Source of the DNA: Planctomycetota bacterium
GTDB lineage: Bacteria > Planctomycetota > JACOTG01 > JAJDCM01
DNA: 64,000 nt
Assembly (NCBI GenBank): GCA_029260825.1
Contig: JAJDCM010000322.1
Coordinates: 1-64,000 of the forward strand
Reading direction: 5' to 3'
The notes beneath the pieces were generated by a model. It did no database searches. It was given only the letters and a program-made list of their open reading frames with translations, and had not been told where the DNA came from. This document shows, piece after piece, positions 27,515-52,267 of this stretch (position 1 is the stretch's first letter; every line of letters begins with the position of its first letter). Position numbers and translations under genes: made by a program.

Positions 27515-27588
27515 GGGCCTATAGCTCAGTCGGTTAGAGCACCGGACTCATAATCCGTCGGTCCCAGGTTCGAGTCCTGGTGGGCCCA
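27515..27588 (+). tRNA. tRNA with CAU anticodon, probably tRNA-Ile2 (lysidine type)
   Basis: A 74-nt cloverleaf: acceptor GGGCCTA/TGGGCCC with discriminator A, D-stem GCTC/GAGC, anticodon loop CTCATAA and T-arm CCAGG-TTCGAGT-CCTGG. The anticodon is CAU. The wording around it (GGACTCATAATCC) resembles tRNA-Ile2, where TilS changes C34 to lysidine, more than elongator tRNA-Met; this assignment is inferred. The CCA end is not encoded. Its 3' 49 bases are part of the island attachment site, so the present 3' half was supplied by the element. Confidence 0.92.
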
Positions 27589-29298: not shown

Positions 29299-29561
29299 GA
29301 CGGTCCCTTCGTGTGGGTGTACGCGCCCGTTGGCTGAACTGCCTGGGGTCATCGGCTGCCCCCATTGAATGCGCCCCATCCTGTGTCGGAATCTGCGACG
29401 CGCATGAACTGGTGTTGCATACCGGACCCAGCGCCGCTCCCATTCTTGCCATCAATGTCTGGTCGCTTCATTCTTGCTTCCACCTGTCCCGCAGGGAGCA
29501 TAGGGATGATCTCTCTATACTCTTTCTGAGACCCATCAGTTTCTAGGAAAAGGACGTAAAC

Positions 29562-31799: not shown

Positions 31800-32067
31800 T
31801 TTGTTTGCCTCCCTGTTCGTCGTTATCTTGGCTTTTGCGGGTTTGTGAAGCGGCCTCTCGAAGTGTGGCTCGAAGCTCATCCGTTAGTAACTTGAGCGTT
31901 GTAGCTGCCTGAAGAATGTGTGTGGCTTGCCACAAGCGCCTCCCAGCGAGTACTGAGGGCTTCGGTTTGATTTTGCCTCTACGGACAGTCTCAGCGAGAC
32001 GAGGCTCCGTCGTGCCGAGCAGATGAGCTGCCTGACCGGTGGACATGGGGAACTTGGTTGTAGTCAT
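31786..32067 (-). CDS. small helix-turn-helix protein of the island replication unit
   Basis: A 93-residue protein with a MerR/excisionase-like N-terminus (MSTGQAAHLLGTTEPRLAETVRRGKI) and a coiled, charged C-terminus. GGAGGTCAAGA stands just before the ATG at 32067. Its end overlaps the primase start, so it is the first gene of a two-gene unit with it. It may be a replication or copy-control regulator; this is inferred from context only. Confidence 0.75.
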   Translation of the reverse strand: MTTTKFPMSTGQAAHLLGTTEPRLAETVRRGKIKPKPSVLAGRRLWQATHILQAATTLKLLTDELRATLREAASQTRKSQDNDEQGGKQNATT

Positions 32068-33224: not shown

Positions 33225-33690
33225 CGGATGGCCTCAGATCACTTCATTTACGGCAAGCCATGAGACGCTGGTTCGGTGGGAAATGCCAGTCTATTACAGG
33301 GATTGATAGAATCGACCGTTGGTTAGCATGTTGAGACTCCAATGGTGCCGATCTGGCCCTAGCTGCAATTTTTTGGGACATCCCCTTGCTCAAATTGCCG
33401 CTGACCCGCCGTCTCGTTCCCCCGGTGCCCAGAGCCACGAATGAACTGTGAGGACAGCGAGGAACCTTCCGCAGTTTCTTACGGGGTACGGTGTTTCGTA
33501 GTCTTGGGGGCCGCCTCCGATTTTGCTATCTGATAGCAACAAAAGGAGTACCGCGCACCAATCGTGAGTGGGCTGGGAACCTTCTCGACTAAGTTGGCGG
33601 GTCAAGCTAGGACAGAGCGGCGCCCGGGTGGTCAAATTCTAGATCGCCTCATCCGGATCTGAAGATTTCGAGACATAGAGGTGCGATGCC

Positions 33691-33920
33691 GTGCAAACGT
33701 CTGCACTCTGCCACACTGCGTTGACCGCCCGCCGAGGGTTCTCGTGGAAGATGGATCGAGATCCCAAATCATTTGTTTGGTTGTAAGGTCCGCTGCAATT
33801 CCGGTCGGCAAGATCGCCATTCGAGGTGCACTGCAAACGCTTGCAGTCCGGAGCGCCACGGGGCGCGAGCCGCGCAAATCCTCTTTGCTATTTCTGAGAG
33901 CCGACTGCTAGCGCTAGCAG
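33691..33920. promoter_or_regulatory. three LacI/GalR-type operator-like palindromes
   Basis: Sites at 33691-33706 (GTGCAAACGTCTGCAC), 33831-33846 (CTGCAAACGCTTGCAG) and 33905-33920 (CTGCTAGCGCTAGCAG, a perfect palindrome). All share TGC-N3-CG-N3-GCA with a central CG, the shape of LacI/GalR-family operators (TGnAAnCGnTTnCA). The spacing of centres is 140 and 74 bp. No LacI-family gene is seen in the window, so the binding protein is unknown. Confidence 0.45.
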
Positions 33921-34165
33921 TGATTGAAGAGATGAGAATCTGCGCCCATCGGAAGTCAGAAACCCAAGAGAGCAAGAGCGTCGATGAAAGAGGCAAGAGG
34001 AAGAAGAGAGCGAAGGGAGGAGAGGGGGTTTCAAGACACGGAATCGTCAATACAGGAGCGCCACAACGCCCCAAGAGGCTTTCTGCCCTGGTTCGAGCCC
34101 AGGAAGGCTGTTACTACACCTCCTCCACTCCGGGGCGGGGGCCGGGTTTGGAGGCTCTCATAGTA

Positions 34166-34187
34166 TCTGGCAGACTGAACTGCCAGA
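34166..34187. repeat. short perfect inverted repeat
   Basis: TCTGGCAG and CTGCCAGA surround a six-base loop. There is no T-run, so it is not a classical terminator; it could be an operator or an RNA hairpin. Confidence 0.5.
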
Positions 34188-34939
34188 CTGCCATAAACTA
34201 GCGATGATGCATGATTCTGGCGGGAACGACCGCAGAGGGGCCGTCTCCGACCAAACCTACGAGTACGCGTCAAGTCGTTTGGGGGGGTATATAGTTGATG
34301 CCGGAAGACCCTCAACGTAAGCGACAAGGGGTGTGAAGAGTAGGATAATATTGAATATTCATTGCAAAGAAAGGATCGAGTCGAACCTGATCCTGCGCAG
34401 CGCAAGGATTCAACCACAGGTCGGGACGACGTAAGTTAGCTAGATATCGCCCTCCCGATCTTTTTGTCTGAGAATTGGGAAAGGCAAGATCGCGGCTTGG
34501 CCGGTCCGGTGGTTCGGAGTGGTCCGTGGCCAGATTGGCGGCATGTCGAGGTCACAGGATCGTCCTTGCACCGAGGAAGGATTTGACCTGCCGTGAAGGG
34601 GGCTTCAGGGCATCTACAAGTCGATCTCCTGTTCCTTTTGGGAAGAGGGTGAATGCATTTGCTCTGGGCTATTGAAAAGGCGGCAACAGGGTGACTGGGT
34701 TATGTGTTTACTCCCCATAACCTACAGGAAACGGAGTGCTTATCGATTCGAATCGAGCTGATAAAGGGGTTCGTCGTGGCCCATTCGGATTGTTGCTCTT
34801 TGTGCTGTCTCAGCTTACCGCCACCTTAATTTTTGTTCGTCCAATTCTTTCTGTTGCCGTCGCCTTATGCTTCGCTTTTGTCAGAGGGTGAGATAAGGTC
34901 ATGGTGTCAACAGTTTCGGTGTAATTGGAGAGGTGTTAC

Positions 34940-35131
34940 ATGGCTGAGGTCATGTTGTGGGTTTCAAGTGTAACCGAACGGCTCAAGGTTGCGGGGAAGA
35001 TCACCTCGAGGAAGATATCCGGCGACAAGAGAGGGGACGAGTACGGTATTGACCCCGTTAAGCTCGAGACCTGGATTCGAGATTGCTCCTTGGCAGGGGC
35101 GTGCACAGCTTCCGTCCGAGGTGCAGGATGA
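34940..35131 (+). CDS. short HTH-like ORF coupled to drmD
   Basis: A 63-residue ORF with GGAGAGG before its ATG. Its stop overlaps the drmD start in ATGA, so it is translated with the operon. The segment VTERLKVAGKITSRKISGDK followed by YGIDPVKLETWI resembles the end of a MerR/excisionase-like winged helix, in which a strand leads to IDPxxLExW. Most of the recognition half seems missing. It may be a truncated operon regulator or leader peptide. The move from AT-richer to GC-rich sequence falls within its first third, close to the left edge of the GC-rich DISARM cassette. Confidence 0.4.
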   Translation: MAEVMLWVSSVTERLKVAGKITSRKISGDKRGDEYGIDPVKLETWIRDCSLAGACTASVRGAG

Positions 35132-38100
35132 CCCTTCAGCCCGGCCAAATCGTCCGCGTCCGCTCGCGCAGGTATCTCGTCGAGGGGGTGATTCCTCCTC
35201 CCGAACCGGTCGATAGTCCGCTGGTCCGGCTTTCGTGCGTGGAGGATGACGCCCTTGGCGAGTCCCTCGAAGTCCTGTGGGACAAAGAGATAGATTCCCA
35301 GGCCCTGGACGGGGCGAATTGGCAGGCCATCGCCAACCGGGGTTTCGACGAGCCACGCCTGTTTTCGGCTTACCTGAATACCCTCCGGTGGAACTGCGTG
35401 ACCTCCACAAACGCCCGCCTCTTCCAAGCCCCTTACCGGGCCGGGATCGAGGTGAAGGCGTTCCAGCTTGAGCCCCTGCGCAAGGCGTTGCTCATGCCCC
35501 GAGTCAACCTCTTCATCGCTGACTCCGTTGGGCTCGGGAAGACTATAGAGGCCGGGCTGATCCTGCGGGAGATGCTCATGCGCCAGAAGGTGCGGCGCAC
35601 CGTCATCTGCTGTCCTCCATCGGTCGTCCGGCAGTGGAAGGACGAGATGGAGCAGCGGTTCGGCCTGACTTTCGTGATCTACGATCGAGACTACGTAACT
35701 GCCAGGCGCCAGGAGCGGGGCTACGGCATCAACCCCTGGACGACCCACAACCGCTTCATCATCTCCCAGGCACTCATCCGAAACGAGGTCTACGCCGGTC
35801 CCCTACGGAACTGGCTCGAGGAGTTCCCAAGTGGCTCGATGTTCATCCTGGACGAGGCCCACAATGCGGCGCCCGCCAGCGGCACCAAGTACGCCATAGA
35901 CTCCAAGCTGACCCGTGCCATCCGCGACCTCACCCCCCGCTTCGAGCACAAGCTCTTCCTCTCGGCGACTCCCCACAACGGCCACTCCAACAGCTTCTCA
36001 GCTCTCCTGGAAATGCTCGATCCGCAGAAGTTTTGCCGCGGCGTCCCCGTGCACCACGCCTCCCGCGACGCGGTGATGATCCGCCGGCTCAAGCACGACC
36101 TCCGTGAGATCGGCGAGGAGTTTCCCGACCGGAAGGTTGTCCGGATCGACATCGACGGGCTGTCCGAGGACGCCCCCGAGCTGGTCCTCTCGCATTTGCT
36201 CCAGCAGTATCGGCGGGCCCGGGAGGCCCGGCTCAAGGAAGCAACCCGCTCCCAGCGGGCTTCGGCGATGCTTGTGGTCATCTCGCTGCAAAAGCGGCTG
36301 CTCTCCTCCATCGAAGCCTTCGCCCGCACCCTGGACGTCCACGGAAAGGCTATGAAGCGGCAGGCGGACGCGCCGCTGCCGCCGGAGATGCTCCCTGAGA
36401 CGCTGTCGTTGCTCCTCGCCCCGCCCGGGTCCGACGACGAGCGTGCGGCGTTGGCTGAAGATGAGGTCGCCGCCGAAGAGGACCTTCAGATGAAGGTGGC
36501 CACAGCCGCTTCCGCCGGCCCGGCTCACTCCCTGGGGGCCGAGCTTGAGCTCTTGGACGAGATGTCCCGCATCGCCAACCAGGCTCGTTACGATCCTGAC
36601 AGCCGGATCCGGCACCTCATCGCATGGGTGAAAGAGAACCTGTGCCCCGAGCTTGGAACCGCGAGGGCCAGATGGAATGACCGACGCGTCCTCATTTTCA
36701 CCGAGTACACGGACACCAAACGGTACCTCGTGCAGAGCCTGCAGGCGGCCATCGCGGGGTCTGACCGGGACAGCGACCGGATCATGACCTTCCACGGAGG
36801 CATCGGCGAGGAGCGCCGCGAGGACATCAAGGCCGCCTTTAACGCCGATCCGGCGCGACACCCGCTGCGGATCCTGGTGGCGACGGATGCCGCCCGGGAG
36901 GGGATCAACCTCCAGAACCACTGCGCCGACCTGTTCCACCTCGACATCCCGTGGAACCCGAGTCGGATGGAGCAACGTAACGGCCGAATCGACCGCAAGC
37001 TCCAGCGATCGCCGGAGGTCCGCTGCCACTACTTCGTGGTCAACCAACGGGCCGAAGACCGTGTGCTTGACGTTTTGGTAAGAAAATCCGAGGTCATCCA
37101 CGAGGAACTGGGCAGCCTCGCCCCTGTGGTCGCCAGACGGGTGGACAGAATGTTGTCGGAGGGCATCCACCACGAGAAGGTAGAGGATCTCTTCAGCACG
37201 TTGGACCGGATCGACGGCGAGGTCCAAGCCAGCTCGGCGGGGAAGGTCGTGCTGGAGGACCTCGAAGAGGCCCGGGAGCGCAAGGCGAAGCTCACCACCC
37301 AGGTAGAGCGTCTGGAACAGATGCTCAAGGTCTCCCGCGACTGGATCGGGCTGGACGACCGCCACTTCCGCGACGCTCTGTCGGCCTCGCTGGAGATTCT
37401 CGGTGCCGAGTCCCTTCAGCCCTTGAACGACGCCGCAGCTGCTCAGGACCCATCAACGGCCCAGTGGGTCATCCCCCATTTGCACGAGCGGATGGGTGCC
37501 GACCACACCTGGGTGCACACACTCGATGCCTTGCGAGCTCCCATCAAGAAGGGCCAGAAGCCGTGGGAATGGCGGAAGGAAGCCCCCATCCGCCCGGTGG
37601 TATTCCGAGACCCGGGAACGCTCGACCGCAAGGCGGTTCACCTCCACCTGGAGCATCGAGTGGTGCAGCGCCTGCTCGGACGTTTTCTCGCCCAGGGGTT
37701 CCTCCATGACGAGCTGACCCGAGCCTGCGTGCTGCGCACCGACGACCCCTTACCCCGGGTAGTGGCCCTCGGCCGCCTGTCGCTCTACGGGGATGGAGCA
37801 ACCCGGCTCCACGACGAGATCCTGGCGGTCGCCGCCGAGTGGCAGGACCCCGCCAATCGAGGACGAGGCAAGCTAAGGCCCCTCGGTGAGGGAATCAAGA
37901 ACGAGGTCCTCAAGCTACTCGACAATGCACTCGCGCAGCCCCGCCTGCGGGAGGTGCCCGATGCCATCCGGAGGCGTCTTCAGGCCCACGCTGCCCAGGA
38001 TGTCGGCGAGCTCCATCCACACCTCGAGCGCCGGGCCGAGGCGCTCTCAAACCAGGCGAAGCGGGCGCTGGAGTCTCGCGGTGAGCAAGAGGCTCGAGAG

Positions 38101-38364
38101 ATGAAGAAGATTCTCGAAGGCCAGAGGGACCGGATCGAGAGGCAGCACAAGAAGGCGGCTGGAGATAGCCTCCAGCTTACCCTGGGTTTCTCCCAGGACG
38201 AGGAGCGGCAGTTCGCCGCAAACCGGAAGCACTGGGCCAGCCGTCTGAGTGATTTGGAGAACGAGATCATCGGCGAGCCTGCTCGAATCCGCGCTGGGTA
38301 CGAAGTGCAGGCTCACCGCGTGGAGCCAGTGGGGCTGGTCTACCTTTGGCCGGTGTCTGGATGA
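35128..38364 (+). CDS. drmD: DISARM class 1 protein DrmD (SNF2-like helicase)
   Basis: DrmD is the SNF2-family ATPase that defines class 1 DISARM. I use the ATG at 35128 (residue 16 of the track ORF), giving 1078 residues. The helicase core has motif I DSVGLGKTIEAG (GKT 137-139), motif II LDEAHNA (DEAH 242-245), motif III LSATPHNGHSNSF and motif VI MEQRNGRIDRKL. A basic coiled region (about 1000-1050) precedes the C-terminus. It acts in the cytoplasm with the other Drm proteins. Only 10 bp separates it from drmMI. The codon use is markedly GC-rich. Confidence 0.92.
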   Translation: MTLQPGQIVRVRSRRYLVEGVIPPPEPVDSPLVRLSCVEDDALGESLEVLWDKEIDSQALDGANWQAIANRGFDEPRLFSAYLNTLRWNCVTSTNARLFQAPYRAGIEVKAFQLEPLRKALLMPRVNLFIADSVGLGKTIEAGLILREMLMRQKVRRTVICCPPSVVRQWKDEMEQRFGLTFVIYDRDYVTARRQERGYGINPWTTHNRFIISQALIRNEVYAGPLRNWLEEFPSGSMFILDEAHNAAPASGTKYAIDSKLTRAIRDLTPRFEHKLFLSATPHNGHSNSFSALLEMLDPQKFCRGVPVHHASRDAVMIRRLKHDLREIGEEFPDRKVVRIDIDGLSEDAPELVLSHLLQQYRRAREARLKEATRSQRASAMLVVISLQKRLLSSIEAFARTLDVHGKAMKRQADAPLPPEMLPETLSLLLAPPGSDDERAALAEDEVAAEEDLQMKVATAASAGPAHSLGAELELLDEMSRIANQARYDPDSRIRHLIAWVKENLCPELGTARARWNDRRVLIFTEYTDTKRYLVQSLQAAIAGSDRDSDRIMTFHGGIGEERREDIKAAFNADPARHPLRILVATDAAREGINLQNHCADLFHLDIPWNPSRMEQRNGRIDRKLQRSPEVRCHYFVVNQRAEDRVLDVLVRKSEVIHEELGSLAPVVARRVDRMLSEGIHHEKVEDLFSTLDRIDGEVQASSAGKVVLEDLEEARERKAKLTTQVERLEQMLKVSRDWIGLDDRHFRDALSASLEILGAESLQPLNDAAAAQDPSTAQWVIPHLHERMGADHTWVHTLDALRAPIKKGQKPWEWRKEAPIRPVVFRDPGTLDRKAVHLHLEHRVVQRLLGRFLAQGFLHDELTRACVLRTDDPLPRVVALGRLSLYGDGATRLHDEILAVAAEWQDPANRGRGKLRPLGEGIKNEVLKLLDNALAQPRLREVPDAIRRRLQAHAAQDVGELHPHLERRAEALSNQAKRALESRGEQEAREMKKILEGQRDRIERQHKKAAGDSLQLTLGFSQDEERQFAANRKHWASRLSDLENEIIGEPARIRAGYEVQAHRVEPVGLVYLWPVSG

Positions 38365-38374
38365 GGGGGGTGTG

Positions 38375-41300
38375 ATGGCAAAGATCGATCCCGAGCTGCG
38401 TGTTCATAAGGACTGGCTGGGCCTGCTTCAGCCGGTGGGCCTCGTGGTCTCTCCGCCTGCTCTGGTCAAGGCCCAGGCGGTGCCGAGCGAGAACGTGGCC
38501 GAGCTCCAGCAGCAGCTCGTTTCGGTAGTGGAGATCCCGCCCGAGTCGCCCTTGGGCAGCGACGACGAGCCCTCTATCTGCGACCTTCCGGCCTTCCTGC
38601 GGACCGTGCTCGGTTGGTCCGCCGACGATATCGCCGGCGAACCGGGCGGCCCGCCCATGCCCGACCGACTCGAGCTGGTGCTGCCCGACTATGACGAGAC
38701 TGTGCGCCCCACCCATGCCGTGGTGGACAGCATGGGCGACGGAGAGCCACTGATGCTCGTCCAGGTGCTTTCCCCGGGCACCCCGCTCGATGAGGTGCGC
38801 GACGATGTCGCTCGCATCGGTTGGTCGGCGCCCCCCCAGGCCAAGCTCGAGCGCCTGATGCGCGAGGTGAAAGTACCGGCGGGCCTGCTCTGCAACGGCA
38901 ACGCCCTCCGCTTAGTCTACGCACCCAGCGGCGAATCCTCAGGGCACCTGACTTTCCCCGTCGCCGCCATGTGCGAGGTGAGCGGGCGGCCCATCCTTGC
39001 CGCCCTTCACATGCTGCTCTCGGAGCACCGGGTCTTCTCCGCCGCGAACGGCCGTCGGCTGCTCGACGTGCTCTCCGAGAGCCGAAAGTACCAGGCCGAG
39101 GTTTCCAACGCCCTCTCCGATCAGGTCCTGGGCGCGCTGTGGGAGCTCCTGCGAGGTTTCCAAGCCTCCGACACCGAGGATGGCCCACACATCTTCGATC
39201 AGACCGCCCGGGAAGATCCCGAGCACGTATACGGCGGACAGCTCACGCTGCTCATGCGCCTCATCTTCGTGCTCTACGCTGAGGACGAGGGACTGATGCC
39301 CGAGGGCGACGTCTATGCCAACAATTACTCGGTCTCGGGCCTCTACGACCGCTTGCGCTCGGACGCCGGCTGCTACCCCGACACGATGGACCAGAGGTAT
39401 GGGGCATACGCCTGGCTGCTTTCGCTTTTCCGCCTGATCTTCGACGGTGGCGGACATGGTGGGCTACGGTTACCGACCCGTCATGGTCAGCTCTTCAATC
39501 CCGACGAGTTTCCCTTCCTCGAAGGGCGGCCGCGTGGCGTTGGCCGGGTGATGAACGAGAAGTTCGAGGCTCCGCGGGTTTCGGACGGCTGCATCTACCG
39601 GGTGATCGAAGCCCTGCTGATCCTCGACGGCGAACGTCTCTCTTACCGGGCGCTGGATGTGGAGCAAGTGGGCTCGGTCTACGAGGCGATGATGGGCTAC
39701 GAGGTCGAGCGAGCTTTCGGATGCTGCATCGCCGTACGGCCTAAGCACGTGGTCGTTGACGTAAACGCATTGCTCGAGGTTGATGGAACCAAGCGCAAGA
39801 AACGGCTCAAAGACAAGGCGGACAGCGATCTCACGGGGGCTTCCGCCGCGGCCCTTAAGGCGGCGACCACGGTCGATGACGTGGTTGCGGCCCTAGGGCG
39901 ACGGGTCTCGCCCCGCTCCCTGGACGCAGCCGGCACGCCACGGTTGATGACCCCGGGTGCCCTCTATCTCCAGCCCGGAGAGGAGCGCCGGCGTACCGGC
40001 TCCCATTACACCCCACGGGAGCTGACCGAGCCTATCGTGTGTACCACCCTCCGGCCGGTGTTGGAGGCCCTGGGCGAGCGGCCCACGCCCGAGCAGATCC
40101 TTGACCTCAAGGTCTGCGACCCGGCCATGGGCTCCGGCGCCTTCCTGGTGGAGACTTGCCGACAGCTCGCCGAGCGCCTGGTGACCGCGTGGGAGGTCCA
40201 CGATGTCACGCCCAAGATCGACGCTGACGAGGAGCCCATCCTCCACGCCCGGCGGCTGGTGGCCCAGCGGTGCCTCTACGGCGTCGACAAGAACCCCTTC
40301 GCCGTGAATCTCGCGAAGCTCTCCATCTGGCTGGTGACCCTGGCCAAGAACCACGCGTTCACCTTCATCGACCACGCGCTCAAGCACGGCGACTCCCTGG
40401 TGGGGCTCACCAAGAAGCAGATCGCAGCCTTCCACTGGAAGACGGACACCGGCCCGGCCATGGACCTCTTCGAACTCAAGCTGAGGCAGGACATCGAGGA
40501 GGCCTTGGGCTGGCGGGACGCCCTTCAAGGGCTCGACGAGGGGGACTACAACCAGAAGAAGGAGGCGTGGTGGGAGGCCGAGAACGCACTCTCCGACGTC
40601 CGGCTCATCGGTGACCTGGCGGTGGCGGCCTTCTTCGGGGCCGACAAGGACAAGGCCCGCGAAGAGCTACGCGGTCAGTACCTCAGCAAGGTGGAGGCGT
40701 GGCGGGCGAACGAGGCCATCCGGCACGACCTGGAGGGCATCGTCGAGGAGCTGCGGGGCGGCGAGAAGCAGGTGCCGCCGATGCACTGGGAGATCGAGTT
40801 CCCCGAGGTGTTCGGGCGGGAGAATCCGGGCTTCGATGCGATGGTGGGGAATCCGCCTTTTCTGGGTGGTAGACGGATATCAACGGTTCATGGGTCGAGC
40901 TATCTTCGTTTGCTCTTAACTATCCATCCTGGGGCCGAGAACCTATGTGATTTGGTCGCACACTTTCTGAGGCGTGCCTATGGGCTCTTACGGGAACGAG
41001 GCACCGTGGGGATGGTCGCGACAAACAGCGTAGCGCAGGGGGATACTCGCACAGGCGGTCTATCACACATTTGCGCCAGACAAACCGGAACAATTTTTGC
41101 GGCAAGACGCCGGTATAAATGGCCAAATGTCTCAGTGGTTGTCAGTGTCGTTCATGTCATTAAGGGCGCCTTCCATGGGCCCCGCTATCTGGATGACACG
41201 GTAGTTCCAGCAATCACCGCGTTCCTATTCCACAAGGGGGGCCATGTTGACCCGGCCCGGTTTGCTGGACGCAACGCACTCTTCTCCTCAGGAAGTCAAA

Positions 41301-42382
41301 TCTATGGTCAAGGATTCCTCTTCGCGGACAATGACAAAAAAGCCAACTCTCTTGCATGCAGGCGCAGGTTACTTTCCGAGTACCCACGAGAAGCTTCACG
41401 GGTACATCCATACATGGGTGGAAGCGAGCTCAACACAAGCCCAACTCAAGCTCCTCACCGATGTGTAATCTACCTGAGTGATGTTTCTACAGAAGATGAA
41501 CTCGATAAGTACCCCGGCCTTGCGCAAATCGTACGCGAGAAGGTGAAACCGGAACGAGATCGCCTACCGCCTGGTGGCAGCAATACACCATTGAAGCGTC
41601 GTTGGTGGGCGTATCAAGCCCACCGACCTGAATTGTATGCGGCGATGGAGAAGCTTGATCGCGTACTCGTTTGCTCAAAGGTGGCTCCATATTTCACTTT
41701 CGCCCTGTTGCCGACAGACATAGTGTTCTCCCAGAAGCTAAATGTTTTCTTACTCAACAGCAGGAATGACTTTGCGATACTTCAGTCGCGACCGCACATA
41801 GTTTGGGCACGTTTCTTCAGTAGCACTTCAATGGAGTTGCCCAACTATGTTCCCTCTGATTGTTTCGAGACTTTCCCCTTCCCTGAGAACTGGCAGACCG
41901 ACCCCACCCTCGAAGCCGCGAGCAAGATCTACTACGAGTTTCGCGCCGACCTGATGGTCCGAAACGACGAGGGACTCACCAAGACCTACAACCGTTTCCA
42001 CGACCCGGACAACCACGACACGGACATCGTGAAACTCCGCGAACTGCACGCCGACATGGACCGGGCGGTGCTGGACGCCTACGACTGGAACGACATCTCC
42101 ACCGACTGCGAGTTCCTCCTCGACTACGAGATCGACGAGGAGACCTGGGGCACCAAGAAGAAACCATATCGCTACCGATGGCCTGACGCAGTCCATGACG
42201 AGGTCCTGGCTCGCCTGCTTGACTTGAACCAGGAGCGGTACCAGGAAGAAGTCGCCGCCGGGCTGCATGCCGAGATCGGCAAGAAGAATTCAGCAACGAA
42301 GAAGACCAAATCCAAGGCCGCACCCGCGTCCGACGGCACCCTGCCACTTTTCGCCGAAATGAATCGGTCTGAGGACGGGTGA
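38375..42382 (+). CDS. drmMI: DISARM class 1 DNA methyltransferase DrmMI
   Basis: This adenine-N6 methyltransferase of the Eco57I/PglX-like type marks host DNA as self in class 1 DISARM. The start is the ATG at 38375, ten bases after the drmD stop, giving 1335 residues. The SAM-binding motif DPAMGSGAFLVE lies near 582 and the catalytic NPPF near 826 (DAMVGNPPFLGG). Before these is a long N-terminal domain. From about 40,855 to 41,880 (residues about 827-1168, the likely target-recognition part) the DNA becomes clearly AT-richer with rarer codons. GC-rich coding then resumes, which suggests a swapped specificity domain. Confidence 0.9.
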   Translation: MAKIDPELRVHKDWLGLLQPVGLVVSPPALVKAQAVPSENVAELQQQLVSVVEIPPESPLGSDDEPSICDLPAFLRTVLGWSADDIAGEPGGPPMPDRLELVLPDYDETVRPTHAVVDSMGDGEPLMLVQVLSPGTPLDEVRDDVARIGWSAPPQAKLERLMREVKVPAGLLCNGNALRLVYAPSGESSGHLTFPVAAMCEVSGRPILAALHMLLSEHRVFSAANGRRLLDVLSESRKYQAEVSNALSDQVLGALWELLRGFQASDTEDGPHIFDQTAREDPEHVYGGQLTLLMRLIFVLYAEDEGLMPEGDVYANNYSVSGLYDRLRSDAGCYPDTMDQRYGAYAWLLSLFRLIFDGGGHGGLRLPTRHGQLFNPDEFPFLEGRPRGVGRVMNEKFEAPRVSDGCIYRVIEALLILDGERLSYRALDVEQVGSVYEAMMGYEVERAFGCCIAVRPKHVVVDVNALLEVDGTKRKKRLKDKADSDLTGASAAALKAATTVDDVVAALGRRVSPRSLDAAGTPRLMTPGALYLQPGEERRRTGSHYTPRELTEPIVCTTLRPVLEALGERPTPEQILDLKVCDPAMGSGAFLVETCRQLAERLVTAWEVHDVTPKIDADEEPILHARRLVAQRCLYGVDKNPFAVNLAKLSIWLVTLAKNHAFTFIDHALKHGDSLVGLTKKQIAAFHWKTDTGPAMDLFELKLRQDIEEALGWRDALQGLDEGDYNQKKEAWWEAENALSDVRLIGDLAVAAFFGADKDKAREELRGQYLSKVEAWRANEAIRHDLEGIVEELRGGEKQVPPMHWEIEFPEVFGRENPGFDAMVGNPPFLGGRRISTVHGSSYLRLLLTIHPGAENLCDLVAHFLRRAYGLLRERGTVGMVATNSVAQGDTRTGGLSHICARQTGTIFAARRRYKWPNVSVVVSVVHVIKGAFHGPRYLDDTVVPAITAFLFHKGGHVDPARFAGRNALFSSGSQIYGQGFLFADNDKKANSLACRRRLLSEYPREASRVHPYMGGSELNTSPTQAPHRCVIYLSDVSTEDELDKYPGLAQIVREKVKPERDRLPPGGSNTPLKRRWWAYQAHRPELYAAMEKLDRVLVCSKVAPYFTFALLPTDIVFSQKLNVFLLNSRNDFAILQSRPHIVWARFFSSTSMELPNYVPSDCFETFPFPENWQTDPTLEAASKIYYEFRADLMVRNDEGLTKTYNRFHDPDNHDTDIVKLRELHADMDRAVLDAYDWNDISTDCEFLLDYEIDEETWGTKKKPYRYRWPDAVHDEVLARLLDLNQERYQEEVAAGLHAEIGKKNSATKKTKSKAAPASDGTLPLFAEMNRSEDG

Positions 42383-42400
42383 TGTGCAGGAGGTGATGCC

Positions 42401-45400
42401 ATGAACGACGTTGCTGCAGTCCGCAGCCGCATTCTCGACGCCCTGCAGCTTGACCTCGTAGGCCCCCGCCATGGCGAGCCGGGTCACGAGGCCTACGCCG
42501 AGGAGATCCTGCCCGTCGCCCCGTCCAAGTGGTATTTGGCGGGCTTTCTCGTGCCCTACGAGGCGCCCGCCGAGCAGCGGTCCGACGACGACGGCGACGA
42601 TTCCCTGGACCAAGTAGAACGGCCGGTGGATGGCGACGACGACAACGCCCCCGAGTCCACCTCGGCCCGCAAAGCATTCTTCCCCTCGTCCATGGGTCTC
42701 TCGGTGCTGGTGCCCCGCGATACCGATCGGCTCCAGGTGCGAATCTCCTGGGCCGACTACGCCCCAGTGGTCGACGACGGTGATGAGAAGGGCGACGGCG
42801 ATTCCGTCGGTGAGCCGGTTACGGAAGAGCTCGCCGTCGAGCAGATCGAGGGCGAGGACAGCGAGGCCGGGGGTGACCCGGAGCGCCGCAAACGCCCCCG
42901 AGGTTGGCGACGACTTCTCCGCGAAGCGGAAGTCGAGCTCACGCTCCGGGAGGGGGAGCCCGTGCCGACCGAGGTCCCAAGGGGCGAGGGGCTCCGGGTC
43001 GTGGTGTCTGTCCGTCGGGTGGATGACACCGAGCTGGTCCCGACCGGCACCCGCTCGGCCTCAGTCTTCCTCGTCAACCACCGGCGGCCATCGCCGGACA
43101 TGACTCGGGACGCGGCCTATGTGTTCCAGGCCGAGCTGTCGCTAATCGCAATCCAGCCCTTTGTCCCCCGGCCCAACTTACGCGGGCACCAGAGCGACGA
43201 CTGGGACGAGAAGGTGGCCGACCTTCAGTACGCCGACGCCGTAGAGTATGCCGTGGGCCACAACATCTCGGCGGTGGCGCTGACCGGCGAAGGCGGCTGC
43301 CGGGAGGTGCGAACCACCTGGATGCCCACCGCGGACGTGGAAAAGGTCGTTCCGGCGCAGCTTGACGAGGTGGAGCTGGGCATCGAGGCTTTGGCGGGTG
43401 CCGAGTCGGCCGAGGCCGTCCGCGCCATGGTGGGTCCGATGGTCGAGAGCTACGGGGAGTGGATCGAGGGCCAGCTTCACCAGCTCCCGGGAGACCCGAA
43501 GCGAGCCCAGGTGGGCCGGGATCTCATGGCCCGAGCGGGGCGGGCCCGGGACCGCATCCAGACTGGGCTTGACGCCTTGGACCAACCCCATGTACTCGAG
43601 GCGTTCCGGATTGCTAACAAGGCTATCGCCACGGCGATCCGCCAGCGGGACTGCCACGGCACGCCCGAGGCGAACCCCGCCGACATGGGTACGCCCGTCT
43701 GGTATCCATTCCAGCTCGCCTTCCTCCTGACGAATATCGTGGGTGTTGTCGACGGGGAGCACCCGGACCGAAAGGTGGTGGACCTGCTCTTCTTCCCCAC
43801 CGGCGGCGGCAAGACCGAGGCGTACCTGGGCCTGGCGGCCTTCACCATGGTGCTGCGCCGCCTTCGGGACCCGTCCATCCAGTCGGCGGGCCTTTCGGTG
43901 ATCATGCGCTACACCCTGCGCCTCTTGACTCTCGACCAACTCGGTCGCGCGGCGACCCTCATCTGTGCTCTTGAGCTCGAGCGGCAGGACGACGTCCCCA
44001 AGCTAGGCGCATGGCCCTTCGAGATCGGCCTGTGGGTGGGCCAAACGGCGACGCCGAACGTGATGGGCAAGAAGGGTGATAAGAACCGCTACTCAGCTCG
44101 GGCGCGGACCGTCGCCTTCCTCAATGACGACCGCCGCAAGCCCTCACCAATCCCGCTGGAGAACTGCCCCTGGTGCGGGACCAAGTTCCAGAAGGATAGC
44201 TTCACCCTGCTCCCCGACGCCAACGAGCCGACGGATTTGCGGGTGATGTGTGTTAACCGTCGGTGTGCATTCCACGTGCGCCGGCAGGAGCGCGGCTTGC
44301 CCATCCTCGCTGTGGACGATCCCATTTACCGGCGACTCCCTACCTTCATCATCGCTACCGTCGATAAATTCGCGAACTTGCCATGGGTGGGCGAGACCGC
44401 CGGGCTTTTCGGCCGGGTGGAGCGGTACGATTCGGATGGCTTCTATGGTCCGACCCGGGCCGGTGTGGGGCGGGCCCTGGAGCAGCCATTGCCGCCGCCC
44501 GACCTCATCATCCAGGACGAGTTGCACCTGATTTCCGGGCCGCTCGGCACCTTGGTCGGGCTTTACGAGACGGCCATTGACGCCCTGTGCACTAATCCCG
44601 TGGGCGGCGAGGGCGTGCGGCCAAAGATCGTTGCCTCCACGGCGACGGTGCGCCGGGCGGAGCGGCAGATCCGCGGCCTGTTCGGCCGGGCCAATGTGGA
44701 TATCTTTCCGCCACCGGGTCCGGACCGTCGGGACTCTTTCTTCGCGAAGACCGTGAGCTCGTCAGAGCGCAATCCACGCACCTACGTGGGCATTGCCGCA
44801 CAGGGCCGGAACCTGAAAGTGGTGCTTTTACGGACTTACCTCGCGCTGCTTTCAGCGGGACAGAAGGTCTGGCAGGAATCCGGCGGGGTCCGAAACTCCG
44901 ACAACCCGGCTGACCCCTATATGACGTTGCTCGGCTATTTCAACTCGCTCCGGGAGTTGGGCGGTAGCCGCCGCATCGTCGAGGACGAAGTGCGCTCTCG
45001 GCTCGGGGACTATGGCCTTCGCCGTCGTCGCAAGGACATGGAGCAGTTACTCTTCGCCAACCGCAAGAATTTCGCGGAGCCTCGGGAGCTCACTAGCCGG
45101 GTAAGCACGAACGAGGTTGCCGACACGAAGCGGCGACTCGCACTCGCCTTCCAGGATAAGGAGCGCGTGGACGTGGCACTGGCCACCAACATGATCTCCG
45201 TGGGCCTCGACATCACGCGCCTGGGGCTCATGGTGGTTTTGGGCCAGCCCAAGACAGCCGCGGAGTATATCCAGGCCACTAGCCGAGTGGGCCGTGACGA
45301 CAAGCGGCCGGGGTTGGTGGTGACCCTGCTCAACGTTCACCGCCCCCGGGACCGGTCCCACTACGAGCGGTTCGAAGCCTGGCACGAGAGCTTCTACCGG

Positions 45401-45889
45401 GCCATCGAGGCCACCAGCGTCACCCCGTTCTCGCCTCGGGCGATCGATCGTGGAATCGCAGGGATCACGGTTGCGCTTGCTCGTCTGGGGCACCCAGGGC
45501 TCACTGCCCCGCGCCATGCGGCGGCCATAACCCGGCACCGCAACGAACTGGACTTCGTGCTTGACTCAATCTCAAGGCGGGCGGAGGGCCACGACGGAGG
45601 GCTAACGGGCGAGGAGCAGGAGGAATTGCGTCAGAAACTCCGGGGGCGGGTCCAGGACCTGCTCGACACTTGGGCGAGCATCGCAAGTCGCAAGGGCGAG
45701 CTACAATACCAGCGAGAAGTAGGGGTGGCGCCGCCCCTACTCTTCGACCCGCTGGACCCCGATTTGGAACGGCAGCCCAGGGAAGCACGCAAGTTCACGG
45801 CGCACCGCAGTCTGCGGGACGTGGAGCCCACGGTTAACCTGTGGCTGTGCAACCCCGACGGCTTCGAGATCGAGGGGGAGCGGCTATGA
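42401..45889 (+). CDS. drmA: DISARM helicase-like protein DrmA
   Basis: DrmA is a DISARM core component, a DNA-binding helicase-like ATPase of 1162 residues. AGGAGGTG stands before the ATG, one of the strongest ribosome sites in the window. Walker A is FFPTGGGKTEAY (T467-T472), then ATVDKFANLPW, a DEAD-like box IIQDELHLISGPLG (about 706) and STATVRRAERQIRGLF. Motif VI is QATSRVGRDDKRPG. A zinc site is suggested by CPWCGTKF and CVNRRCAF. An acidic stretch lies near residues 60-160. Its stop overlaps drmB (ATGA). Confidence 0.93.
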   Translation: MNDVAAVRSRILDALQLDLVGPRHGEPGHEAYAEEILPVAPSKWYLAGFLVPYEAPAEQRSDDDGDDSLDQVERPVDGDDDNAPESTSARKAFFPSSMGLSVLVPRDTDRLQVRISWADYAPVVDDGDEKGDGDSVGEPVTEELAVEQIEGEDSEAGGDPERRKRPRGWRRLLREAEVELTLREGEPVPTEVPRGEGLRVVVSVRRVDDTELVPTGTRSASVFLVNHRRPSPDMTRDAAYVFQAELSLIAIQPFVPRPNLRGHQSDDWDEKVADLQYADAVEYAVGHNISAVALTGEGGCREVRTTWMPTADVEKVVPAQLDEVELGIEALAGAESAEAVRAMVGPMVESYGEWIEGQLHQLPGDPKRAQVGRDLMARAGRARDRIQTGLDALDQPHVLEAFRIANKAIATAIRQRDCHGTPEANPADMGTPVWYPFQLAFLLTNIVGVVDGEHPDRKVVDLLFFPTGGGKTEAYLGLAAFTMVLRRLRDPSIQSAGLSVIMRYTLRLLTLDQLGRAATLICALELERQDDVPKLGAWPFEIGLWVGQTATPNVMGKKGDKNRYSARARTVAFLNDDRRKPSPIPLENCPWCGTKFQKDSFTLLPDANEPTDLRVMCVNRRCAFHVRRQERGLPILAVDDPIYRRLPTFIIATVDKFANLPWVGETAGLFGRVERYDSDGFYGPTRAGVGRALEQPLPPPDLIIQDELHLISGPLGTLVGLYETAIDALCTNPVGGEGVRPKIVASTATVRRAERQIRGLFGRANVDIFPPPGPDRRDSFFAKTVSSSERNPRTYVGIAAQGRNLKVVLLRTYLALLSAGQKVWQESGGVRNSDNPADPYMTLLGYFNSLRELGGSRRIVEDEVRSRLGDYGLRRRRKDMEQLLFANRKNFAEPRELTSRVSTNEVADTKRRLALAFQDKERVDVALATNMISVGLDITRLGLMVVLGQPKTAAEYIQATSRVGRDDKRPGLVVTLLNVHRPRDRSHYERFEAWHESFYRAIEATSVTPFSPRAIDRGIAGITVALARLGHPGLTAPRHAAAITRHRNELDFVLDSISRRAEGHDGGLTGEEQEELRQKLRGRVQDLLDTWASIASRKGELQYQREVGVAPPLLFDPLDPDLERQPREARKFTAHRSLRDVEPTVNLWLCNPDGFEIEGERL

Positions 45890-47733
45890 ATAGACGGAAC
45901 CAGGCCAAGAACATCCCTCCCACGGGCGAGTTGCGTCAGAGCCAGCTCCTCACGACCTTCGGCCCGGGGTCCATGGTCGACCTACCCAACCAAGCGGTCT
46001 TGATCGGGGGGCTGGATCACTGGCAGTTCGCCGAGCGAAAGCGGGTATTTGAGGATCGCCTCGAGGGCTATCTTCGCGAGCTTCTGTCCCTCGACGAGCT
46101 GACCCTCTACGAGCCGCCGGTCGACAACGGCGATCCGATGGCGCCACGGTCAGGCATTACGGCCTTCCTCTTCCCGGCGTGGTTCCTGGCGCAGGTAGAC
46201 GAGACCTACGAAGCCCCTGGCGGACGCGTGTACCGGACCCGACCGCTTGTCCCCTGGGACAGGCTGGTGAGGGGCGGCTACCTGAACCGGGACCGCAAGG
46301 TCGTCCCGGTAGTGCCGGTTCGCTTCGTTCAGGCCTGCGTGAAAGGGCACATCAGCGACATCGACTGGTACGCCTTCGTCCGTGAGACCTTTGACCATGA
46401 TCGGGCCGGACAGCTGTGGCTGGACGAAGGCGGCGCCGGTAATGATTTCGCCGAGATCTATCTCCGAGACGAGCGGAATAGCAACCATCGCAGGCCGTTG
46501 GGCCACGCTACTGTCCCCGGCGCTAAGGTGCTGGGAAACTGCTCCGGCCGGATGCCTTGGCTCGGACCTCGGCACTGGGACAAGTGTGAGGAGCCGAACC
46601 GCTTGCTCACCCGCTCGGCGTCGAACGCCTACTTCTCGCAGACCGTGAACGTGATCGCCATCCCCGACACCGACGCTGCCCTGAAGGGTGCCGTCGACGA
46701 GGTGTTCGATGACTTCCTGCAATATTCCGAGAGCTGCGAGGACGTGACTCGGGAGCGCCGAAAGCAGCGGGTGATGAACGCCCTCGAGGGGCACAGTAGT
46801 GAGGCGGTCTGGGCGGACATTCAGCGTCGGAAGGGGGGCGTCCCGGCAGAGAGCCGCAGCATCAAGCAAGCGGAGATCGAGACTTTGATGGCCTCTCCCG
46901 ACACCGTGGGAGAGGATGTTCCTGGGGGCGACTTCTACGCCCGGGCGAGATCGCTGACGGGGCTGCCCGCCCCGTTCCAGGGCCGCCTCGACCGGGTGGT
47001 TCTGGTGCACCGGCTTCGCGAGGTGATGGCCCAGGTGGGCTTCACTCGTTTCGAGCCGGTCATGCCCGACATCGACGGTGAGCTCGACCTCCATGTGGAG
47101 CCGGCCCCCCTCGCCCGGGAGACGACCTGGTTGCCGGCCATCGAGAACAGGGGCGAAGGCGTGTTTCTCTCTTTCTCCCGGGCCGCCATCGAGAGTTGGA
47201 TGTCCCGGCCCGGGGTGCGGGCTCGCTCGGCGCAGTTGGTGGCAGGTTTCGAGTCCTGGGTGGAGCGGAAGGGGGCCGACAACGCGACATTTCCTGGGGT
47301 TCCCTACCTGATGCTACACAGCCTCTCGCACCTCCTGATCACCGCGGTCGCCCTTGAATGTGGATACTCGGCGAGCGCCATTCGCGAGCGGGTCTACGCC
47401 GGAGAGTACGGCTTCGGGATCCTGCTCTACACCGGATCGGCCGGGTCTGAGGGCACTCTCGGCGGCCTGGTAGAGGTTGGGCGAGATATAGAGAGCCACC
47501 TCCGTCGTGCCCTGGAGCTTGGTCGCCTGTGCTCTAACGACCCGGTCTGTGCCCAGCACGACTCCCCGAACCCCCACGAGGAGCGTTTCCTTCACGGGTC
47601 CGCGTGCCACGGCTGCTTGCTCATCGCCGAGACGAGCTGTGAGCGTTGCAACGAATTTCTGGACCGGGCGCTGGTGGTCCCCACTGTGTCGATACGGGAC
47701 TCGGCTTTCTTCGGGGGGGAGGGCTGCGGATGA
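45886..47733 (+). CDS. drmB: DISARM protein DrmB (DUF1998)
   Basis: The core partner of DrmA, with 615 residues from the ATG at 45886 inside the drmA stop (ATGA). The C-terminal DUF1998 region has YLMLHSLSHLLITAVALECG, YGFGILLYTGSAGSEGTLGG and a cysteine-rich end (CSNDPVC, SACHGCLLIAETSCERC) that probably binds zinc. DrmA and DrmB form a complex; that is family knowledge. The gene overlaps drmC in the same ATGA manner. Confidence 0.93.
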   Translation: MNRRNQAKNIPPTGELRQSQLLTTFGPGSMVDLPNQAVLIGGLDHWQFAERKRVFEDRLEGYLRELLSLDELTLYEPPVDNGDPMAPRSGITAFLFPAWFLAQVDETYEAPGGRVYRTRPLVPWDRLVRGGYLNRDRKVVPVVPVRFVQACVKGHISDIDWYAFVRETFDHDRAGQLWLDEGGAGNDFAEIYLRDERNSNHRRPLGHATVPGAKVLGNCSGRMPWLGPRHWDKCEEPNRLLTRSASNAYFSQTVNVIAIPDTDAALKGAVDEVFDDFLQYSESCEDVTRERRKQRVMNALEGHSSEAVWADIQRRKGGVPAESRSIKQAEIETLMASPDTVGEDVPGGDFYARARSLTGLPAPFQGRLDRVVLVHRLREVMAQVGFTRFEPVMPDIDGELDLHVEPAPLARETTWLPAIENRGEGVFLSFSRAAIESWMSRPGVRARSAQLVAGFESWVERKGADNATFPGVPYLMLHSLSHLLITAVALECGYSASAIRERVYAGEYGFGILLYTGSAGSEGTLGGLVEVGRDIESHLRRALELGRLCSNDPVCAQHDSPNPHEERFLHGSACHGCLLIAETSCERCNEFLDRALVVPTVSIRDSAFFGGEGCG

Positions 47734-49229
47734 AGTCGGCGTTTTGCGGATTGGGCCGTCCAGCCATGAATGCTCTGGCGGAGGCACTAGAGGGGGGACG
47801 TATTGCTCCGCCGTTTCGCGATAGCCAAGTACGGGGGCAGGTCCCGGACGAACTTGTGGAGGGAATCCTCGACGAGATGCAGGAGCTGTCCGAACGTGGT
47901 ATGGCGCCAGCGCACATCGCCCACATGCTCCGGGTTCTGGCCGAAGAGCGTGCTGCCGCACAAGTCATCGCCGACCGGGTAGCGCTTGTGTGGTCGGGAA
48001 CTGAGGTCTTGGCCGGTCGAAGCCGGGATACGGCGGTGGTTGTCCAGGAGCTGTTCCGCGAGGCCCGGGACAGCGTGCTGGTGGCTAGTTACGCATTGGA
48101 CACCGGAAGCAAAGCTGAGGCGCTCTTTGGGCTCCTCGCCGCAAGGATGGACGTAGAGCCGGACCTTCATGTGCGGCTGTTCCTGAACGTCCATCGCAAG
48201 CATAGGGACGAGACTTCTGACGTCGTCCTGCTGCGGGAGTTTGCCGATGCTTTCTGCAATGAGGTTTGGCCGGGCACGCGACTCCCGGAGGTATTTCACG
48301 ACCCACGGTCCCTCGCGATCGACGGCACGAAGCGGGCTTGCTTGCACGCCAAGTGCGTCGTTATCGATGAAGACCGCGCACTCATTACATCGGCCAACTT
48401 CACCGAGGCTGCCCACGAGCGGAATATCGAGGCTGGCACCGTCATAACGGACGCCATTCACGCCCGAGCACTGAAGGCCCAATTCGACACCCTGGTGGAC
48501 CATGGCGCGCTCAAGCGGGTGCCTGGGATTGAGAAACTGTGCGCTCAGTGTGGCAAGCCAATGCAGCGTTTGCGCACCGTTTTTGAGAGCGGGGAAGTGA
48601 AATTCACTTATGAGTGTAGGGATTTCAAATGTTCAAGTGGCCCCGGCGGTCTGCTTACTATTCGGACAATTGACAAGCTTACGGGCGAAACGACAAAGGA
48701 GGCAAAGTTCTGGGATCTCGAGAGTTTTGAAGAATGGGAGGTCGGAAGGCCTTCACAAGGTGAACAGAACGTAGCGTCGGTCGCGACTGTCTTTATGCAG
48801 GGGGTCAACCGAACGCTCGGCACCTCCTTCGATACGCTGGTTCCTGGGCCAGAGAGCTCGCGCGAGGAAGGTGGATTCGATTGTGTCGTGAGGTCCGGCT
48901 CTGAAGGTTACGAGCTGAAGCTTCAAGTTACGCGAGCGCTACCGAGCAACGTCCAAGCCAAGCAAGGTAGGGCTGGGAGGCGTGATCTACAAGGAACGAC
49001 TGAAGCTGTGTCTGAATGGTTGACCGAGGCTGTTAGAAGAAAAACAAACAGTGCTGCATCAGATATCGCACTGGTGTTGGACGGCATCCAATCTCCAGTG
49101 CTTGCACTCGTATCCGACATTCGATGCCGTGAGCGTGACCGGGAATTTCTGGAGGCTCAGCGGTGGCACAGCATTTGGGTGGTTGGCCCTGAGTGGGTTT
49201 CGCAACTTGCGGGGAAGACACTACCTTGA
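47730..49229 (+). CDS. drmC: DISARM protein DrmC, extended PLD protein with zinc ribbon and PD-(D/E)XK-like segment
   Basis: The start is the ATG at 47730 overlapping the drmB stop, giving 499 residues; a typical DrmC is, from memory, about half that. Residues about 90-260 form a phospholipase-D domain with the HxK motif H206-A-K208, D213 and SANF. After it comes a C2C2 zinc-ribbon candidate (C271, C274, C296, C301). Next is a segment with D384 (GGFDCVV), then E395-L-K397 (YELKLQV), which fits the D-x(n)-ExK pattern of PD-(D/E)XK nucleases. The DNA is AT-richer from about 48,560, so the C-terminal half looks acquired. The nuclease reading is inferred. Confidence 0.88.
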   Translation: MKSAFCGLGRPAMNALAEALEGGRIAPPFRDSQVRGQVPDELVEGILDEMQELSERGMAPAHIAHMLRVLAEERAAAQVIADRVALVWSGTEVLAGRSRDTAVVVQELFREARDSVLVASYALDTGSKAEALFGLLAARMDVEPDLHVRLFLNVHRKHRDETSDVVLLREFADAFCNEVWPGTRLPEVFHDPRSLAIDGTKRACLHAKCVVIDEDRALITSANFTEAAHERNIEAGTVITDAIHARALKAQFDTLVDHGALKRVPGIEKLCAQCGKPMQRLRTVFESGEVKFTYECRDFKCSSGPGGLLTIRTIDKLTGETTKEAKFWDLESFEEWEVGRPSQGEQNVASVATVFMQGVNRTLGTSFDTLVPGPESSREEGGFDCVVRSGSEGYELKLQVTRALPSNVQAKQGRAGRRDLQGTTEAVSEWLTEAVRRKTNSAASDIALVLDGIQSPVLALVSDIRCRERDREFLEAQRWHSIWVVGPEWVSQLAGKTLP

Positions 49230-49372: not shown

Positions 49373-50431
49373 GTGGCCATAGGCAGCAGACTTAAGGGGA
49401 GCTTCCTTGGTTATTCTGTTCAGCTTCTGGCTGGGGGCGCTCTTATAGCGCAAGAGGCTTCCTTAAGTCCGGCGGCGGGGACATTCGAAACATCCACGCT
49501 GTCATACACTGCACAGGCCGGAGATCCCCATCTTGGCTTGCCGCTAGAGATACGATTGGCCTCGGTTGGCCTCCGGGCCCAGGTTAGCTTTGACAACGTC
49601 CAATTAACAGCTTGCCCATCCGTCGCAGACGTGTTGGTCGTGGCAACTCCGACCACTGCATGCGTCTTTCCTGGTGGAACTCTGCGCTTTGACGTTAGCG
49701 CCCTGAACACAACTGGAAGCACGGTGGTACAGGACATTTGGATCGATGCATTCAAACCAAATGGAGACCCGTTAGCAGGCAATCCCATCGTAGGCCCGCG
49801 AGCGGTGACCTTCGCACCGTTTCGTCAGATCCAGGGATCAGTGAGCTTTCCCATCCCTGCGAGTGTCCCAGCTCCCTCTGGACCTTTTACCTTGAAGACG
49901 CTGATTGGCACTTTCCCAGACTGCCCGACGGACAGCAGCTCTTTCGACATCTCCCTGGTTCCGCAGCAAAACACGGCTTGTCCGCAAGGCGTGACTGTCA
50001 CCCACGTAGGGACAATTACTGATGGAAATCGGCTGGGCGAACAATTCCAATACACGTTCACGCCTCAGCAAGATTATTTCATTGACTTCCGCGAGGTCGT
50101 AACAACTCCACCAGGAGACGATGGCTGCAACTGCGGTTTGGACGAGACCATCATCATAGAATCTGTTTTTGGGTGTTTTGATGGTCCCATAAGGTTTGCG
50201 ACTGACGACATTTTCAACACGGTGCATGCTGGCACTGCCTGCGGATGTGCTAGCGTCAGCACACAGGAGCTTCAATGCCGCCCAAGAGGCGGAGGCGATA
50301 ATGATTGGATGACGTTCCACGTCAATGAACTCAAGTGGGAGCGTGCTTCTAACGGCGATATCGTTGTCACCGTGACCCCTCAAGGCGGTTCGCCAGTCAG
50401 TGCTTCACAGCCAGGGCCTACCTGCCGGTAG
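49373..50431 (+). pseudogene. 5'-truncated exported-type protein, Ig-like repeats
   Basis: The 352-residue frame begins in what looks like the end of a secreted-protein domain (GYSVQLLAGGALIAQEA, LPLEIRLASVG, VSFDNVQL), the usual close of a lectin-like or PEP-CTERM-associated domain. An Ig-like region (about 80-180) and a cysteine-rich region follow (DGCNCGLDE, TACGCASVS). No signal peptide precedes it and no family-like residues are coded upstream, so the gene has lost its 5' part. It lies 143 bp after drmC. A recombination junction there is inferred. Confidence 0.5.
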
Positions 50432-50532: not shown

Positions 50533-51921
50533 ATGACGCCTTTTCGCTGCGGCATCTTCCTTGCGCTTCTCGTTCTGGTTGGCTGCACAGGAACGCAGCC
50601 TCGAAAGACGGCGTCTCCGAAATCGAAAACGAAGACAGCGCTGAGCGAATCGCTTGGGGAGGCCGCGGCCAATGGGAACCTGGATCAGGTCCAAAAGGCC
50701 CTTGCCAGTGGCGCCGACGTCAATGCAAAGAACGCCCGTAACGGCTTTACGTCCTTGATGTCCGCCTCCGGGAATGGCCATGCGGACATCGTCGAGGTGC
50801 TTCTGGCCAAGGGCGCCCACGTCGATGCAAAGACCAGCGAGTACGGCTTTACGGCCTTAGGGATCGCCTCTGATAGAGGCTACGGAAACGTTGTCGAGAT
50901 ACTTCTTGCCAGTGGGGCCGACGTCAATACAAAGGGCAAGAAGGGTGTAACGGCGTTGATGTCCGCCGCACATAATGGCCATTCGGACATCGTCGAGATG
51001 CTTCTTGCCAAGGGCGCCCATGTCAATGCAGGGACCGCACTTGGCGGCGAAACGGCGTTGATGTCCGCCTCCGGGAATGGCCATGCGGACATCGTCGAAA
51101 TGCTTCTGGCCAAGGGAGCTGACGTCAATGCAAAGAACGACGACGGCATAACGGCGTTGATGCCCGCCGCGCAGAATGGCCATTAGGACATCGTCGAGGT
51201 GCTTCTTGCCAAGGGAGCCGACGCCAATGCAAAGGCCGCCAACAGCGGAACGGCTTTGATAGTCGCCTCCCATAATGGCCATTCGGACATCGTCGGGGTG
51301 CTTCTGGCCAAGGGCGCCCACGTCAATGCAAAGAGCAATGACGGCTTTACGGCGTTGATTGTCGCCTCCCAGTTTGGCCATTAGGACATCGTCGAGGTGC
51401 TTCTTGCCAAGGGCGCCCACGTCGATGCAAAGAACAGCGACGGCTTTACGGCGTTGATCGCCGCCTCCCAGAATGGCCATGCGGACATCGTCGAAATGCT
51501 TCTGGCCAAGCGCGCCCATGTTGATGCAAAGAACAACGACAGCGGAACGGCGTTGATGGTCGCCTCCCAGAATGGCCACGGAGACGTGGTCAAGATCCTC
51601 CTTGCCAAGGGAGCCGACGTCGATGCAAAGGCCGACTTCGGCTCAACGGCGTTGATACTCGCCTCCCAGAATGGTCACGGGGACGTGGTCAAGGCACTCC
51701 TCACCAAGGGAGCCGACGTCAATGCAAAGAACGACGACGGCATAACGGCGTTGATGTTCGCCTCCCAGTATGGCAACGGAGACGTTGTCAAAATACTCCT
51801 AGGCAGCGGCGCCGACGTTAATGCAGAGAAAAAGACGGGTGCAACGGCGTTGATGCTCGCCTCTCAGAATGGCCACGAGGACATCGTCGAGATACTCGAG
51901 AAAAGCGGGGCTCAAGAGTAA
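50533..51921 (+). pseudogene. ankyrin-repeat lipoprotein gene with two in-frame amber codons
   Basis: One frame of 462 codons is interrupted by TAG at 51184-51186 and 51382-51384 and shows as three ORFs in the track. The N-terminus is a lipoprotein signal (FLALLVLVGCTG, lipobox LVGC) after TAGGAGAAAAACCAA. About twelve 33-residue ankyrin repeats follow (VEMLLAKGADVNAKNDDGITAL). Both stops arise at the same repeat position, where neighbours read CAT-TCG-GAC or CAT-GCG-GAC. Either it is a pseudogene spread by gene conversion, or TAG is read through. TAG is a true stop for the sulfatase at 13719. Confidence 0.8.
50656..51911 (+). repeat. 99-bp tandem repeat array (ankyrin units)
   Basis: About twelve 99-bp units, several nearly identical, each with GGCCAT-NNG-GACATCGTCGA or a variant and AAGGG(A/C)GCC. 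Edges are approximate. Such identity invites unequal recombination between units. Confidence 0.75.
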
Positions 51922-52217: not shown

Positions 52218-52267
52218 CACCGGACTCATAATCCGTCGGTCCCAGGTTCGAGTCCTGGTGGGCCCAT
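52218..52267 (+). repeat. attR, 50-bp direct repeat
   Basis: It is identical to attL at 27540-27589. The bases outside differ (ACCCGA before it, TTGTTTTCC after), so the matched core is exactly 50 bp. This is the right edge of the island. Confidence 0.95.

Follow-up and report, generated by a model that had tools for sequence, protein, structure and literature searches.

The window, a 64,000-nucleotide stretch of a planctomycete contig, carries five open reading frames at positions 35128–49229, all on the forward strand and without internal stops, in the order drmD–drmMI–drmA–drmB–drmC. The first two junctions are gaps of 10 bp and 18 bp, and drmA/drmB and drmB/drmC overlap as ATGA. Genes and spacing are as given in the original prediction, which had named the operon class 1 DISARM. 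This naming is borne out by profile searches: the top PADLOC match of each gene is DrmD, DrmMI, DrmA, DrmB, and DrmC, respectively, the NCBIfam cut-offs are exceeded by DrmD, DrmA, DrmB, and DrmC, and neither a BREX nor a Pgl system scores higher.

The first gene, drmD (35128–38364), encodes an SNF2-like helicase (PADLOC DrmD, 1086 bits; NF038317, 1121 bits versus an equivalog cut-off of 610) with the motifs GLGKT at residue 135 and DEAH at residue 242. It is followed by drmMI (38375–42382), encoding an MmeI-like N6-adenine methyltransferase without the nuclease lysine (Pfam MmeI_Mtase and MmeI_TRD). No NCBIfam DrmMI model matched this protein, and its identification comes from PADLOC DrmMI (1284 bits). 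It features DPAMGSG at residue 582 and NPPF at residue 826, and the N, P, and P of the latter are invariant among homologs. The YprA-family helicase encoded by drmA (42401–45889; PADLOC DrmA, 1028 bits) is a short-form DrmA (NF038325, 1201 bits versus an equivalog cut-off of 950) with TGGGKT at residue 467 and DELH at residue 706. It matches the solved DrmA from Serratia (PDB code 7s9v, E 5e-173) and is homologous over residues 164–1102; however, it comprises 1162 amino acids instead of 1325, and the Serratia operon possesses two methylases, whereas the window operon has one. A search of viral contigs for DrmA found none. The product of drmB (45886–47733) is a DUF1998/MZB protein (PADLOC DrmB, 232 bits; NF038324, 556 bits versus a subfamily cut-off of 240; Pfam MZB), and drmC (47730–49229) encodes a PLD nuclease with HAK at residue 206 and a C-terminal addition. 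The class I DrmC model NF038319 covers only residues 7–256 of DrmC (180 bits versus an equivalog cut-off of 133), and the PADLOC DrmC profile covers residues 2–267 (371 bits). Thus, the diagnostic motifs that had been predicted are found in DrmD, DrmMI, DrmA, and DrmC, and DrmB is supported by its PADLOC, NF038324, and Pfam MZB matches.

Judged by its genes, their order, motifs, and profile scores, all of which it has in common with class 1 DISARM, the operon is an intact member of this class. The description as intact holds for the core operon but not for DrmMI and DrmC, which are mosaics: DrmMI has a replaced target-recognition (TRD) cassette, and DrmC consists of 499 residues instead of ∼267 as a result of a fusion. 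Neither the TRD replacement nor the 232-residue non-DrmC C terminus was described in the original prediction of this operon. DISARM as a system is already known, and the novelty lies in this mosaic state. The operon lacks the accessory genes that some relatives possess between drmMI and drmA or between drmB and drmC. Directly upstream, the stop codon of a 63-residue open reading frame (34940–35131) overlaps the drmD start codon (ATGA); this frame has no significant family match in Pfam or PHROG, and a related class 1 operon (L010) lacks an equivalent ahead of drmD.

The MmeI_Mtase and MmeI_TRD domains of DrmMI and the similarity of DrmD to BrxH helicases (PADLOC) could also indicate a BREX, Pgl, ARMADA, or type IIL (MmeI) system that was misread as DISARM, and a BrxHII-like helicase and a PglX-like methylase are common to ARMADA and class 1 DISARM (PMC12458937). 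However, the operon includes a separate DrmB and a PLD-type DrmC, and DrmA scores above the DISARM cut-off. PglX reaches only ∼35–36 bits versus an NCBIfam cut-off of 400, and the PADLOC type IIG profile 585 bits versus 1284 bits for DrmMI. Type IIL enzymes resemble DrmMI in methylase and TRD, but the N-terminal nuclease motif of DrmMI is without its catalytic lysine, and separate DISARM effectors are needed. Indeed, this lysine is absent from all ∼21 DrmMI sequences covering the site, in which the aligned residue is always Leu, Ile, or Val. We assign almost no probability to a misread system of this kind. Because the lysine is absent, DrmMI is probably a methylase only.

The operon resides in an island of 24.7 kb between two perfect direct repeats of 50 bp that correspond to a tRNA-Met 3′ end, in agreement with the tRNA-borne island of the original prediction. 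The tRNA-Met gene (anticodon CAT; 27515–27588, forward strand; ARAGORN; Rfam RF00005, 71.7 bits) represents the integration site, and Rfam found no RNA families in addition to the tRNA. The left (27540–27589) and right (52218–52267) attachment repeats are both on the forward strand, and the genome contains no other full copy. Four genes on the reverse strand occupy the left side of the island. These encode a tyrosine integrase (27534–28958; Pfam Phage_integrase, 1.8e-13; PHROG integrase), an excisionase-like HTH protein (29071–29379; Pfam HTH_17, 5.6e-13; PHROG 66), a Prim-Pol/D5_N replication protein (29613–31880; Pfam; TIGR01613; PHROG primase; phage primases), and a 333-residue protein (32223–33224) with a weak C-terminal regulator (wHTH) signal that is below the cut-off (Pfam Trans_reg_C, 0.0056). 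The GC content of the operon is ∼0.65 versus ∼0.55 in the remainder of the island.

Between the regulator-like gene and the operon, ∼1.7 kb (33225–34939) contains no convincing gene or Rfam match. Directly after drmC, a protein encoded at 49373–50431 begins in the middle of an HpiC1-like domain (Pfam), the first half of which is missing, and resembles the product of a 5′-cut gene. An ankyrin-repeat lipoprotein-like gene (50533–51921) is broken by two in-frame stop codons. They lie two repeats apart, each at the identical site of its unit (NGH*DIV); a single nonsense change may have been copied between repeats by conversion.

The nearest operons are found in Myxococcota (L018, JAJRTE010000294.1) and Planctomycetota (L019), with DrmA 85–87% identical, which suggests that such operons have moved from one phylum to another. 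The myxococcal operon shares 87% identity in DrmA, 83% in DrmB, 80% in DrmC, and 81% in DrmD, the last compared over the C-terminal part; its DrmC stops at residue 267. The two DrmMI proteins align well in the N-terminal domain (84%), the methylase domain (80%), and the C-terminal domain (82%), whereas the TRD is only 28% identical. In 80-residue segments, protein identity is 70–91% before residue ∼800, 25–54% at residues 800–1200, and 85% thereafter. The same break is seen in the DNA, where a cassette of ∼1 kb (∼40,900–41,975, forward strand; residues ∼843–1200, edges approximate) is 40–52% identical versus 78–86% in the flanks. The GC content drops to 0.49–0.55 inside the cassette versus ∼0.65 around it, and this dip coincides exactly with the cassette. 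Relatives of the TRD at 32–34% identity occur among plasmid proteins with MmeI and PglX annotations. On this evidence, the TRD cassette was replaced through recombination, and the conserved machinery was kept; the motif that the operon marks has probably changed as a result.

The same pattern recurs in other operons. Among 26 class 1 operon pairs whose DrmA identity is ≥94%, the TRD is <70% identical in 20; some of the 26 have a common TRD at 93–99%. Two operons from Nostocales (L021 and L028) are 94–98% identical over most of ∼10 kb, but their TRD is only 47–67% identical. When 33 close pairs were scanned along DrmMI, the median identity was lowest (43%) at residues 1041–1120 versus 89–98% over almost the entire first 800 residues. 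These differences might instead be ascribed to fast divergence in an otherwise ordinary class 1 DISARM, given that TRDs change fast in all restriction–modification systems. However, point mutation cannot give 47–67% in one block between operons whose flanking DNA is 98% identical. TRD exchange by recombination is general, affecting many class 1 operons, as judged from the close pairs. Module replacement by recombination has precedents in type I and type III restriction–modification systems (PMC10273834), and we found no report of TRD or specificity recombination in DISARM in the literature searched, the coverage of which is incomplete.

Tree tests gave a mixed picture and carry no weight for this conclusion. 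Among four DrmA-defined groups, the TRD tree rejected one (p 0.004), was borderline for one (p 0.053), and did not reject two. The TRD tree did not reject the group formed by the window operon and its two nearest relatives (L018 and L019; p 0.60), in which branches are very long. For the methylase domain of drmMI, two of the four groups are rejected; therefore, larger drmMI pieces move too.

The second mosaic feature is a 232-residue C-terminal addition to DrmC (residues 268–499; 48531–49226, forward strand). The PADLOC match ends at residue 267, and ∼85 other class 1 DrmC proteins terminate at the corresponding codon, none with a tail longer than 11 residues. GC3 is 0.54 in the addition, 0.70 in the DrmC core, and 0.76–0.82 in the other four operon genes. 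Four cysteines of the addition (Cys-271, Cys-274, Cys-296, and Cys-301) form the CxxC...CxxxxC pattern of a zinc ribbon. They are followed by an FD...ELK pattern (Asp-384, Glu-395-x-Lys-397), the motif order of which fits PD-(D/E)xK, a fold with an α-β-β-β-α-β core bearing D and E-x-K. Two single-sequence AlphaFold models, both with low confidence (pLDDT 37–39), predict strands followed by a helix, strands, a helix, and strands. From the motif spacing and these two models, the leading candidate for the addition is a PD-(D/E)xK-type nuclease domain, although the odds are somewhat against this assignment.

Searches for relatives of the addition returned nothing real in plasmids and phages (tblastn, E up to 1), in the PDB, Pfam (E 10), PHROGs, and NCBIfam, or in genome contigs, viral contigs, and ∼800 planctomycete genomes. 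Three candidates were discarded: a phage baseplate-like protein (L098) and two acetyltransferase-like proteins (L099 and L100) that matched by chance.

The reading as an ordinary class 1 DISARM treats this tail as read-through sequence without meaning, exposed when the stop codon was lost. In favor of it are the lack of homologs, the low confidence of the predicted folds, and a codon score only slightly above that of shuffled sequences (−0.06 versus −0.24, SD 0.06). However, none of 5000 shuffles produced an open frame of 232 codons, 5 and 15 stops interrupt the two remaining forward frames across the addition, and the tail has the CxxC...CxxxxC pattern. Together with the block-like identity drop in the TRD, these features make an ordinary DISARM with a diverged TRD and a read-through tail improbable. 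Alternatively, the addition might be an assembly chimera of drmC with an unrelated downstream gene; it is unique among ∼85 homologs, the composition changes abruptly at the junction, and the source genome is fragmented and probably metagenome-assembled. The join, however, is in frame and exactly at the codon where relatives stop, and the sequence 3′ of the junction matches the composition of the rest of the island and continues to the right attachment repeat. We consider a chimera very improbable. Rather, the position of the junction argues that DrmC gained the addition by an in-frame fusion at its former stop codon, an event unique in the sampled set. DrmC is reported to be dispensable and to lie outside the DrmAB core (PMC9142583), which would allow for change such as a C-terminal addition.

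We therefore favor, with a probability of roughly 0.85, a class 1 DISARM operon that is the cargo of an integrative element at a planctomycete tRNA-Met gene and in which the DrmMI TRD was swapped and DrmC extended. An element with an integrase, an excisionase-like HTH protein, and a Prim-Pol/D5 protein entered the planctomycete chromosome at the tRNA-Met gene. DrmMI would methylate adenine in a host-specific motif set by the TRD and thereby mark self. DrmAB is known to bind DNA with 5′ overhangs, to be autoinhibited by a trigger loop, and to be less active on methylated DNA (PMC9142583); it would load on unmodified DNA that enters with single-stranded 5′ ends and, together with DrmD, block or unwind it, and DrmC would cut the incoming DNA. 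Recombination has swapped the specificity cassette of DrmMI and kept the other machinery, and DrmC has acquired a zinc ribbon and a possible nuclease-like domain by in-frame fusion.

The role of sequence-specific methylation in DISARM is disputed. Structural work proposes that DrmAB recognizes DNA ends and not sequence (PMC9142583). Operons that are otherwise near-identical but have repeatedly had just the specificity module replaced suggest selection on the motif itself. The tolerance of the conserved effectors for more than one TRD, and so probably for more than one motif, is an argument against direct reading of the motif by the effectors. A wider reading, which we put forward tentatively and regard as rather unlikely, is that class 1 DISARM has interchangeable specificity, the TRD cassette being swapped next to near-identical DrmABC, so that self-recognition would proceed via the methylase motif instead of a fixed DrmAB sequence preference, and that DrmC is here also a double nuclease (PLD and zinc-ribbon PD-(D/E)xK). 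The DrmC fusion is in any case a candidate for a new effector form.

The Nostocales operons (L017, L021, and L028) provide natural matched pairs that differ essentially in the TRD and in nearby accessory slots and allow the role of methylation to be tested. The accessory slot between drmMI and drmA holds an ATP-binding protein and a DUF4435 gene in one of them (L017, 12650–14633), and this stretch differs completely between otherwise near-identical operons. Other class 1 operons carry additional genes as well. A 931-residue helicase-like gene occupies the drmB/drmC slot of a related operon (L010, 15503–18298), and in a related planctomycete operon (L009, 897–6467), a 1856-residue open reading frame with a P-loop (GPPGSGKST), possibly a further defense gene, lies directly downstream of drmC.
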